Below are positions 5,080 through 7,625 of a DNA stretch of 64,000 nt, in pieces. The DNA is from Brevundimonas halotolerans. Lineage in GTDB: Bacteria > Pseudomonadota > Alphaproteobacteria > Caulobacterales > Caulobacteraceae. The notes under the pieces are model-generated. The model did not search any database. It saw nothing but the letters and a program-made list of their open reading frames with translations, and was not told where the DNA came from. The translations under genes and the position numbers were made by a program. Where the stretch lies: positions 1-64,000 of the forward strand of contig NZ_QTTA01000020.1 in NCBI RefSeq assembly GCF_003730275.1, read 5' to 3'. Numbering within the stretch: the stretch's first letter is position 1; each line of letters opens with the position of its first letter.

Positions 5080-5088
5080 CGTTATTGG

Positions 5089-5126
5089 CCCTATCGCTCG
5101 CGACGCGGTCGCTCGCTACTTGAGGG
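5089..5126 (+). repeat. 38-bp CCCTA/TTGAGGG repeat, copy A of a tandem triplet
   Basis: The unit starts CCCTATCGCTCGCGACGCGG and ends TCGCTCGCTACTTGAGGG. It has CCCT/AGGG inverted ends and a doubled GCTCGC inside. Two further copies follow at 50- and 48-bp steps, and a fourth lies at 28874-28910 on the other strand. No protein frame of its own is evident. Confidence 0.85.
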
Positions 5127-5138
5127 CAGGCGTTTTTG

Positions 5139-5176
5139 CCCTAACGCTCGCCGCGCGGTGGCTCGCTACTTGAGGG
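5139..5176 (+). repeat. 38-bp CCCTA/TTGAGGG repeat, copy B
   Basis: This copy differs from copy A at four positions, all within the first 32 bases; its final CTCGCTACTTGAGGG is identical. The A-B junction can form a small hairpin (AGGGCA 5123-5128 with TGCCCT 5137-5142), so neighbouring units can pair through their ends. Confidence 0.85.
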
Positions 5177-5186
5177 CATGTATTTT

Positions 5187-5224
5187 CCCTACCGCTCGCG
5201 ACGCGGTCGCTCGCTACTTGAGGG
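5187..5224 (+). repeat. 38-bp CCCTA/TTGAGGG repeat, copy C
   Basis: This copy differs from copy A at one base only (CCCTAC instead of CCCTAT). It ends 68 bases before the aguA start chosen here. The repeats happen to be open in the aguA frame and encode VARYLR twice, so a longest-frame caller would extend aguA into them. Confidence 0.85.
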
Positions 5225-5292
5225 GTTGGCTTGAGGGGGAGGCGGTTCGTGCCTATCTGGTGCGGCCTGCCCCTATGAAGGATGATCCCGGC

Positions 5293-6279
5293 ATGACCGC
5301 TGTTCCCGTCCCGGCCGAATGGGCTCCGCACCGCGCCATGTGGGTCGGATGGCCCAGCCATGCCGAGCTGTGGGAAGACGACCTTGAGGCCGCACAGGCC
5401 GAGGTCGAGGGACTGGTGCGGGCGCTGGCCGGACCGGGGCGCGAGCAGGTGCGGCTGTTGGTCGGCAAGCGCGAGGCGCTGGAGGCCGCGCAGGCCCGGT
5501 TTGCCGGCGTGGACGGTGTGACCGTGGTCGATGGCCGGTTCGGCGACATCTGGCTGAGGGACACGGGCCCGATCTTCGGTCAGGGCTCCGCCCGGGCGGC
5601 CGCCTTCCGGTTCAACGGCTGGGGCGGCAAATATGAGCTGGAGCATGACGACACGGTCGCGACGCAGATCGGCGCGGCCTCCGGCACGCCGCTCGACCGG
5701 CACGACTTTATCCTTGAGGGCGGGGCGCTGGATCATGACGGGCGGGGCACGATTCTGACGACGCGCCAGTGCCTTTTGAACCCCAACCGCAACCCGGGCT
5801 GGACCGAGGCTCTGGCCGAGTCGGCGCTGACCGAGGCGCTGGGGGCAACGCGGGTCGTCTGGCTGGGCGACGGGCTGATGAATGATCATACGGACGGCCA
5901 TGTCGACAATCTGGCGCGGTTCGTCGGCCCGGGGGTGGTCGTCTGTCCGGTGGGCTGGGGCGCGGACGATCCCAATGACGAGGTCTATGACGCCACAGCC
6001 CGGGCGCTGACGGCCGAGGGGCTGACGGTCATCCGCATTCCCTCGCCCGGCCGGATCGAGAACGAGGACGGCGAACCCATCCCCGCCAGCCACATGAATT
6101 TCCTGATCGCCAATGGGGCGGTCATTGTGCCGAGCTACGGGAACGAAGCGGCGACCGAAGCCGCCTGCAACGCCTTGCGGGTCGTCCTTTCCGATCGCGA
6201 GATTATCGCCCTGCCGTCGCTTGCGATCCTCACCGGCGGAGGCTCGTTCCACTGCATCTCACAGCAGGAACCAGCGTGA
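5293..6279 (+). CDS. aguA: Agmatine deiminase
   Basis: This 328-aa enzyme hydrolyses agmatine to N-carbamoylputrescine and ammonia, the first step of the agmatine route to putrescine. It belongs to the peptidyl-arginine-deiminase-like (guanidino-modifying) superfamily. Visible motifs are WLRDTGP, the DGHVDN block that supplies the catalytic His, and GGGSFHC with the nucleophilic Cys321 near the C-terminus. ATG 5293 is preceded by AAGGA (5278-5282) at good spacing; longer starts would run into the repeats. Its pathway partner aguB lies downstream, separated only by the inverted-repeat unit at 6282-6749, so the two were probably once directly adjacent. Confidence 0.93.
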   Translation: MTAVPVPAEWAPHRAMWVGWPSHAELWEDDLEAAQAEVEGLVRALAGPGREQVRLLVGKREALEAAQARFAGVDGVTVVDGRFGDIWLRDTGPIFGQGSARAAAFRFNGWGGKYELEHDDTVATQIGAASGTPLDRHDFILEGGALDHDGRGTILTTRQCLLNPNRNPGWTEALAESALTEALGATRVVWLGDGLMNDHTDGHVDNLARFVGPGVVVCPVGWGADDPNDEVYDATARALTAEGLTVIRIPSPGRIENEDGEPIPASHMNFLIANGAVIVPSYGNEAATEAACNALRVVLSDREIIALPSLAILTGGGSFHCISQQEPA

Positions 6280-6281
6280 GG

Positions 6282-6749
6282 CTTGGTGAAAAGTGCTAGT
6301 GAGTAGTGAGTAGAGGGGACGGAGCTTGGGCGAGACGCACAATCATCGAGATCTGAAGGTCTGGCAGATCTCTATGGATCTCGTTGAAACTGTCTACAGG
6401 CTCTCGCGTGATTGGCCGAACCACGAACTGTATGGGCTGGTCTCTCAGGCGCGCAGGGCCTCTGTTTCCGTTCCCGCGAACATCGCGGAGGGAGCGGGCA
6501 GGCGCAGTACCGGAGAGTTCGCACACTTCGTCGGGATTGCGCGCGGTTCGCTGGCCGAAGTCGAAACACTGCTCGTTCTGGCGGGCAGGCTCGGATACCT
6601 TGATGAGCGCACCTTGGAACATCTTCTGATGGACATTGCTGAGGTCGGACGGATGCTGACCGGTCTCATGCACTCGTTGCGTGACAGGCAGGCGCGATGA
6701 CACAGAGCTCGACATACTACTCACTACCCACCAGCACTCTTCACCCAAG
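6282..6749 (+). mobile_element. IVS-like unit: four-helix-bundle gene within long inverted repeats
   Basis: The left arm 6282-6313 and right arm 6717-6749 are inverted copies: 29 of 32 aligned bases are identical, with one single-base gap. They enclose only the four-helix-bundle gene. The arms contain a 7-nt period (GTGAGTA repeated). The left arm begins two bases after the aguA stop and the right arm ends nine bases before the aguB start, so the unit fills the gap of a two-gene pathway. No target duplication is obvious. In RNA the arms would form a long basal stem with the gene in the loop, as described for intervening sequences in 23S rRNA. That this unit is mobile is inferred. Confidence 0.6.
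6326..6700 (+). CDS. Four-helix bundle protein (23S rRNA IVS / S23-like, Avd-related fold)
   Basis: This 124-aa protein shows the family pattern clearly: HRDLKVWQISMDLV at the start, LYGLVSQARRASVSVPANIA then EGAGRR in the middle, and FAHFVGIARGSLAEVETLL afterwards. The family is encoded inside 23S rRNA intervening sequences of several bacteria and also occurs free-standing; related folds act as the accessory protein Avd of diversity-generating retroelements. Its biochemical role is not established. TTG 6326 is used as the start because it precedes the conserved HRDLKVW block and has AGGGG 8 bases upstream; no ATG lies there. Codon use is visibly less GC-biased than in the neighbouring aguA and aguB, suggesting acquisition. 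No reverse transcriptase is nearby. Confidence 0.85.
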   Translation: MGETHNHRDLKVWQISMDLVETVYRLSRDWPNHELYGLVSQARRASVSVPANIAEGAGRRSTGEFAHFVGIARGSLAEVETLLVLAGRLGYLDERTLEHLLMDIAEVGRMLTGLMHSLRDRQAR

Positions 6750-6758
6750 TACCCACTC

Positions 6759-7621
<863 letters not shown>

Positions 7622-7625
<4 letters not shown>

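Follow-up and report, generated by a model that had tools for sequence, protein, structure and literature searches.

The S23 unit at the aguA-aguB junction

The window, a stretch of 64,000 nucleotides of Brevundimonas halotolerans DNA (contig NZ_QTTA01000020.1), contains a compact unit between two protein genes. The upstream neighbour encodes an aguA-like agmatine deiminase (5275..6279, + strand; PF04371 with E 2e-101, TIGR03380 below its cut-off) and the downstream neighbour is aguB, encoding N-carbamoylputrescine amidase (6759..7625, +; TIGR03381 with E 2e-136, above its cut-off). By direct reading, the aguA stop codon TGA ends at 6279, and 2 bases downstream begins a 5′ arm of 32 nt (6282..6313, +) that carries GTGAGTA-type heptads at its inner end. 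It is followed by the gene of an S23/IVP four-helix-bundle protein of 124 aa with a TTG start (6326..6700, +) and by a 3′ arm of 33 nt (6717..6749, -), which is an inverted copy of the 5′ arm and leaves 9 bases before the aguB ATG at 6759. The aligned arms are equal in 29 of 32 bases with one gap; their ungapped core (6285-6313 and 6717-6745) is 29 nt long at 90% identity, and the arm score of the unit is 21.5. The first-pass annotation of this DNA had described such arms enclosing an S23 ORF between aguA and aguB, and both the coordinates and the match of the arms were confirmed. The 7-nt periodicity that it had pointed out is real though imperfect in this unit, with a 7-nt self-match of 0.64 compared to an average of 0.28 for random 30-mers; the period is stronger in most relatives outside the window unit's own clade. 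Ends that pair in the transcript had been suggested as well, and predicted folding indeed turns the whole unit into one large hairpin (z -4.9). Just 5′ of aguA, at 5085-5225, there are three similar consecutive stretches (CGCTCGC...GCGGT.GCTCGCTACTTGAGGG), which are unrelated to the heptad arms.

Proteins of the S23/IVP family have been known since the 1990s from rRNA intervening sequences, and a ring structure is available for them. To our knowledge no function has been assigned to them despite this structure, and we know of no catalytic residue set or motif in S23. The ORF of the window belongs to this family according to PF05635 (E 6e-39, 132.9 bits at a cut-off of 33.8) and TIGR02436, 'four helix bundle protein' (126.6 bits at a cut-off of 24). 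Its profile matches comprise PF05635, a weak bAvd match and NCBIfam four-helix families, and no tyrosine transposase was among them. A comparison with PDB 2gsc, the solved relative Xcc0516, gave E 2e-29. The AF2 model of the monomer consists of four helices (mean pLDDT 95), and Foldseek returned 2gsc as its best match (TM 0.88), followed at a greater distance by Avd (4dwl, TM 0.77) and complexes of diversity-generating retroelements (DGRs). Xcc0516 was reported to form a pentamer ring (PMC4990558), and the S23 motif GxxRxxxSxxxNxxE had been noted earlier (PMC3936711). The median dN/dS of S23 in 20 chosen pairs was 0.085, so that purifying selection acts on the protein in these pairs.

Armed S23 units and gene-less arm pairs in Brevundimonas

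S23 is present in 68 of 131 genomes of the genus. Our genus set comprises 112 S23 genes, where two neighbouring fragments in G062 were taken as one unit (L143) and five short fragments were left out (G129:C7:593015, G114:C64, G091:C46 and two at G114:C228). Inverted arms scoring at least 15 surround 101 of these 112 genes, whereas of 160 control placements elsewhere in loci of this kind one reached that score (35.5; median of all 160, 9.5). A 7-nt self-match of at least 0.6 was obtained for 87 of the 101 armed units, but only for 1 of 112 random 30-mers. The 14 armed units below this value include 11 at the agu site, 10 of them in the clade of the window unit, in which the arms have turned into a longer, less repetitive word. 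Extended arms of 4 or 5 heptads were counted on the 5′ side in 56 and on the 3′ side in 70 of the 87 units. The heptad varies between units, yet both arms of one unit agree. An example for two units in close vicinity is L098 (G114:C6), where two S23 units 1.7 kb apart occupy different junctions and are alike arm to arm only.

The window's own genome (G000) has a second S23 unit at G000:C18, which follows immediately on the stop codon of a long ORF and has inverted arms of its own with the heptad TAGGCAG. The first-pass annotation had raised the possibility that the window unit is a dispersed or mobile element, and this is supported by the second unit, by the many units in the genus and by the empty site in many relatives. 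It had also proposed to look for the same arms around other S23 ORFs of the genome; the arms at G000:C18 carry a heptad different from that of the window unit.

The 112 S23 genes with their arms are spread over 21 sites. On the S23 protein tree, which is built on a short alignment and has many unresolved forks, the clades largely keep one heptad across sites. This applies to AGGCAGT arms (sites 2, 16, 17 and 19), AGGGATT-type arms (sites 6 and 13), AGGTTC-type arms (sites 9, 10 and 18), AGGGCTT arms (sites 7, 14 and 21) and AGTGRYT arms (sites 1, 4 and 15); exceptions are L011 at site 7 (AGGGAGT) and L125, L134 and L143 at site 2. Since supported branches mix sites (2, 16, 17 and 19 in one case, 6 and 13 in the other), the S23 gene and its arms appear to have moved together. 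The units at site 3 are one clade in 10 genomes.

An S23 gene lies directly 5′ of aguB in 28 of 130 aguB-bearing genomes. The closest relative of the window by AguB, G084 (98%), is filled, whereas the next one, G072 (95%), is empty. In the empty relatives aguA and aguB overlap at stop and start, as in GGAATGACCC of G072, and such empty junctions in close relatives are what the first-pass annotation had proposed to look for. The filled junction of G084 reads GCGTGA-unit-ATGACCC. The four letters (A/G)TGA found on both sides of the agu unit fit a target duplication, and they can also be accounted for by selection that keeps stop and start. When mapped on a 50-row AguB tree (the 28 filled loci plus 22 others taken from the 30 loci nearest to the window by AguB, 3 of the 22 holding a different ORF at the junction), the states empty, AGU, AGTGGCG and AGTGATT need 22 changes; therefore, occupancy of the agu site turns over, gain, loss and gene exchange being taken together here. 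In L038 (G034), L058 (G041) and L062 (G024), at about 1115-1500, the aguA-aguB junction is filled by about 370 nt of non-S23 sequence, seemingly a small ORF. In the AGTGGCG-type agu units the similarity to aguB begins at residue 1-3, and several of them have no ATG between the 3′ arm and about residue 12. In L005, L007, L010, L012, L013, L016 and L100 of this type it begins at residue 2-3, with no ATG in the roughly 40 nt downstream of the 3′ arm, so that the arm may be translated as a new N-terminus of AguB.

The heptads also form convergent pairs without an S23 gene. Such a pair usually follows a stop codon, has a spacer of about 40-100 nt and stands before the next gene, as read in 20 gene-less loci that were chosen among the matches listed, mostly for being pairs, and are no random sample. 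Arrays of AGGCAGT outside S23 units occur in 12 of 12 strictly cognate-S23 genomes, in 14 of 56 genomes with other S23 only and in 6 of 63 genomes without S23, with mean numbers of matches of 16.8, 1.8 and 0.5 (cognate vs. other S23: Fisher 1.3e-6, which ignores shared ancestry). With a broader definition of cognate genomes the ratio is 14 of 16 vs. 12 of 52, the two broadly cognate genomes without arrays being G058 and G065. For AGGGATT, arrays outside S23 units were found in 9 of 10 cognate genomes, 15 of 58 with other S23 and 5 of 63 without (Fisher 2e-4, again ignoring shared ancestry); the built-in control is void for this word, as reversed AGGGATT is a rotation of the same heptad. The agu-type word AGTGCTAGTGAGCAAG occurs outside S23 units in 8 of 9 cognate genomes, 4 of 59 with other S23 and 8 of 63 without S23, or in 8 of 12 cognate genomes if G000, G077 and G084 are counted, whose arms differ in the word and give no match. 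Matches within own units were removed by script for AGGCAGT and AGGGATT and by eye from coordinates for the agu-type word. The window's genome itself has two extra AGGCAGT arrays, both single: within 240 nt on the side where a partner arm would be expected, none was found. An S23-less copy of the window arm type was found neither with exact words in the genome nor with three mismatches in the window.

A genome with many copies of one arm type often has many of other types too, as seen for G078, G107, G114 and G121. In G107 there are 38 AGGGATT matches and no AGGGATT-type S23, for which a relic, a missing contig or the action of another S23 come into question. Compound arms, in which GAGTGGC heptads stand directly before the agu-type word, were observed in L365, L368, L371, L382, L384 and L386 and in similar form in L366 and L391; they look as if two arm types had been joined or nested.

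A junction with many gene-less units is located at rppH. We compared the 30 loci closest to that of G045, out of 123 genomes, and read the arm types by eye. An S23-less unit is present in 18 of the 30, with five arm types, while 12 have no unit. Eight of these 12 share the same upstream gene end, with overlapping genes in G016 and G021; the other four (G055, G071, G100 and G130) have other upstream DNA. In 9 of 14 S23-bearing genomes the unit at rppH has the arm type of a resident S23, where 3.4 are expected by shuffling (p 0.00045, ignoring shared ancestry), and in 5 of the 14 it is of a different type. This match between resident S23 type and arm type is an association and does not imply causation. 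Some rppH units with different heptads have the word CTTGCTTC beside the 3′ arm in common, and going by this shared word, arms may have been converted in place instead of newly inserted. Upstream of rppH in L352 (G040) the junction is filled by another inverted repeat of the type CTCCCTCCCCG.CTCGGGGAGGG, which is not heptad-like.

A probable two-component system and alternative explanations

Taken together, the unit of the window probably belongs to a repeat system with two components, S23 and inverted arm pairs, and is the member that bears the gene. One component would be S23, a small four-helix bundle with a solved relative forming a ring of five; the other would be the arm pairs, built mostly from tandem heptads, with the S23 gene or just a short spacer between them. 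Across sites the arm type keeps to the S23 clade, and arm pairs of the same type that lack the gene are commoner in cognate-S23 genomes. As a rule a unit is found at a gene junction, a short distance past a stop codon, and many relatives lack it. The S23 ring would recognise its own heptads, in DNA or in the transcript. About one heptad per subunit may be assumed, because the arms peak at 4-5 heptads and the published ring has five members. Through such recognition, gene junctions would receive copies of units or retain those already present, the copies being made by S23 itself or by a host function; a reverse transcriptase is unlikely in this role. RAYT transposases are of the HUH type. By analogy with RAYT and its REPINs, these dispersed inverted repeats appear to have their trans partner in S23, here with no known transposase.

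In the REPIN/RAYT system, short inverted doublets between genes fall into sequence groups that are associated with particular resident genes (PMC3116915). Similarly, dispersed gene-less inverted doublets match the type of the resident gene in Brevundimonas, as an association across the genus and not within G000 alone. In contrast to RAYT, which is a tyrosine transposase (PMC3116915), S23 is an unrelated four-helix bundle and the arms are mostly tandem heptads. The rRNA intervening sequences (IVS) of Leptospira and Coxiella resemble the window unit in that terminal inverted repeats enclose an S23 gene (PMC4990558). However, the window unit is located between the protein genes aguA and aguB and not inside a 16S or 23S rRNA gene, its two arms match each other, and some of its relatives are gene-less. 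For S23 genes with weak arms an rRNA location was rejected, as 20 such loci gave no Rfam match. In Coxiella, tandem heptamers (GACAGAT), the number of which differs between strains, precede S23p, and the terminal stem comprises 28 bp (PMC4990558). The IVS-like architecture outside rRNA, as claimed in the first-pass annotation, is thereby supported, and the heptamers bring the connection to IVS closer; the accessible text of that paper contains no link of heptamers to S23 specificity or to non-rRNA sites. S23/IVP genes have also been described in cas loci (18 genes, one of them between cmr3 and cmr2; PMC3936711) and in 16S and 23S insertions of CPR bacteria (PMC11270868), and these resemble our case as S23 genes inserted between operon genes or in rRNA; arms or heptads around them are not mentioned in the accessible parts of both papers. 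With Avd of diversity-generating retroelements, which acts with nucleic acid, the window S23 shares the four-helix fold; unlike in DGRs, no reverse transcriptase (PF00078) was found in G000. The unit differs from each known kind in one defining feature: it lies outside rRNA, and its resident gene does not encode a tyrosine transposase. The IVS architecture, the Coxiella heptamers and heptameric repeats in Xanthomonas are already in print separately; no paper joining S23 to heptad repeats as one system was found in open-licence PubMed Central.

The window unit could alternatively be an mRNA intervening sequence, in which the arms pair into a stem for RNase III, whose cuts release the S23 segment from the aguA-aguB mRNA. 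This would agree with the single hairpin predicted for the whole unit and with the S23-bearing rRNA IVS of Coxiella, which is cut by RNase III within the stem (PMC4990558). It would also agree with the orientation of S23 units in other lineages, where 54 of 67 are co-directional with the upstream gene under a longest-ORF rule that mis-assigns genes at known sites in this high-GC genus and was used for other lineages only. However, the arm mismatches comprise 116 sense-type and 123 antisense-type wobbles and have no overall sense-RNA bias (genus 79:62 towards sense, p 0.18; other lineages 37:61 towards antisense, p 0.02; units scoring below 15, L150 with its very long arms and three Brevundimonas loci of the other-lineage set were left out). 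Because of this symmetry the stem shows no sign of selection for pairing in a sense RNA, and selection of an RNA stem was rejected. Furthermore, cutting without ligation would split the operon message, S23-less units appear by eye also between convergent genes (L325, L330 and L332), and the 3′ arm of AGTGGCG-type agu units may be translated. We therefore regard an mRNA intervening sequence as unlikely.

That S23 is a passenger of units moved by an unrelated recombinase (RAYT/Y1, an IS transposase or a reverse transcriptase) is likewise improbable. The idea gains from the fact that no catalytic motif is known to us in S23, and from its distant relative Avd (Foldseek 4dwl and DGR complexes), which works with a reverse transcriptase (PMC10053308). 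But S23 occurs in 18 of 35 genomes bearing a reverse transcriptase vs. 68 of 131 overall, so there is no association, and a reverse transcriptase, which was also not found in G000, was rejected as mover. A passenger would further leave unexplained why the arm type follows the S23 clade and the resident S23. We also give little chance to the explanation that nothing is mobile and the arms are selected RNA or DNA structures (3′-end protection, terminators or G-quadruplexes), with S23 as a host regulator binding them. The position close after stop codons, long-lived sites such as site 3 with its single clade, and the G-rich heptads of Xanthomonas, which form quadruplexes in vitro (PMC4692102), are in favour of it; they are opposed by S23 and arms at as many as 21 sites, by supported branches in which sites are mixed, and by empty junctions with overlapping genes.

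Heptad arms in other lineages

The proposed two-component system of S23 and arm pairs was also looked at beyond the genus. The other-lineage set consisted of 109 further loci (80 from a named-genome scan, 29 from a phylum search) with 112 S23 places, and three Brevundimonas loci (L144, L247 and L251) were taken off it. Arms scoring at least 15 were found at 73 of 109 S23 places, and 66 of the 73 are 7-periodic under a lenient criterion (7 the best of periods 4-12, or a self-match at 7 of at least 0.7). A control with mismatched flanks (n=334) had its 95% point at 11.5 and a maximum of 42. At 36 of the 109 places no arms scoring at least 15 were found within the 200-220 nt searched, where some loci end at contig ends. 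The S23 places in the set include Chloroflexi, Planctomycetota, Bacteroidota, Acidobacteria, Cyanobacteria, Firmicutes and Xanthomonas, and the single archaeal locus (L178) has an arm score of 14.5. Cyanobacterial STRRs are heptanucleotides. In a cyanobacterium, Nodularia (L193), the test was weak, with 9 heptad matches of which 5 lie within the S23 unit itself.

The S23 unit of X. arboricola (L208) has GGGAATC arms, and if up to one mismatch is allowed, GGGAATCGGGAATCGGG has 262 overlapping matches in its genome, compared to 0 for the control. The same heptad is known as a dispersed repeat of Xanthomonas, with 186 and 183 patterns and 70 and 75 convergent pairs in two species (PMC4692102). 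These repeats mostly consist of four units and lie closer to the 5′ neighbouring ORF; they were treated as quadruplex-forming, generally not tied to mobile elements and left unexplained, and heptanucleotide repeats in Calothrix are mentioned as well (PMC4692102). The main text of that paper mentions neither S23 nor Xcc0516.

As a more tentative extension, it is conceivable that S23 across bacteria, and perhaps archaea, is the sequence reader of a new class of mobile repeats, in which a ring of five subunits would read one heptad per subunit at both ends of the unit and place it at stop codons. The rRNA IVS would then be copies that landed in rRNA, and the heptamers of Xanthomonas, possibly also those of cyanobacteria, would be gene-less copies. 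As S23/IVP is tied to matching nucleic-acid sequences, its function becomes directly testable by binding assays. If true, the system would explain the dispersed heptameric repeats of Xanthomonas, which were described without a cause, and would represent an unrelated counterpart to RAYT/REPIN, in which one gene has its own repeat family. The arm period is not 7 throughout: it amounts to 8 in the S23 units L189, L202, L235 and L249, and to 9 in L220.
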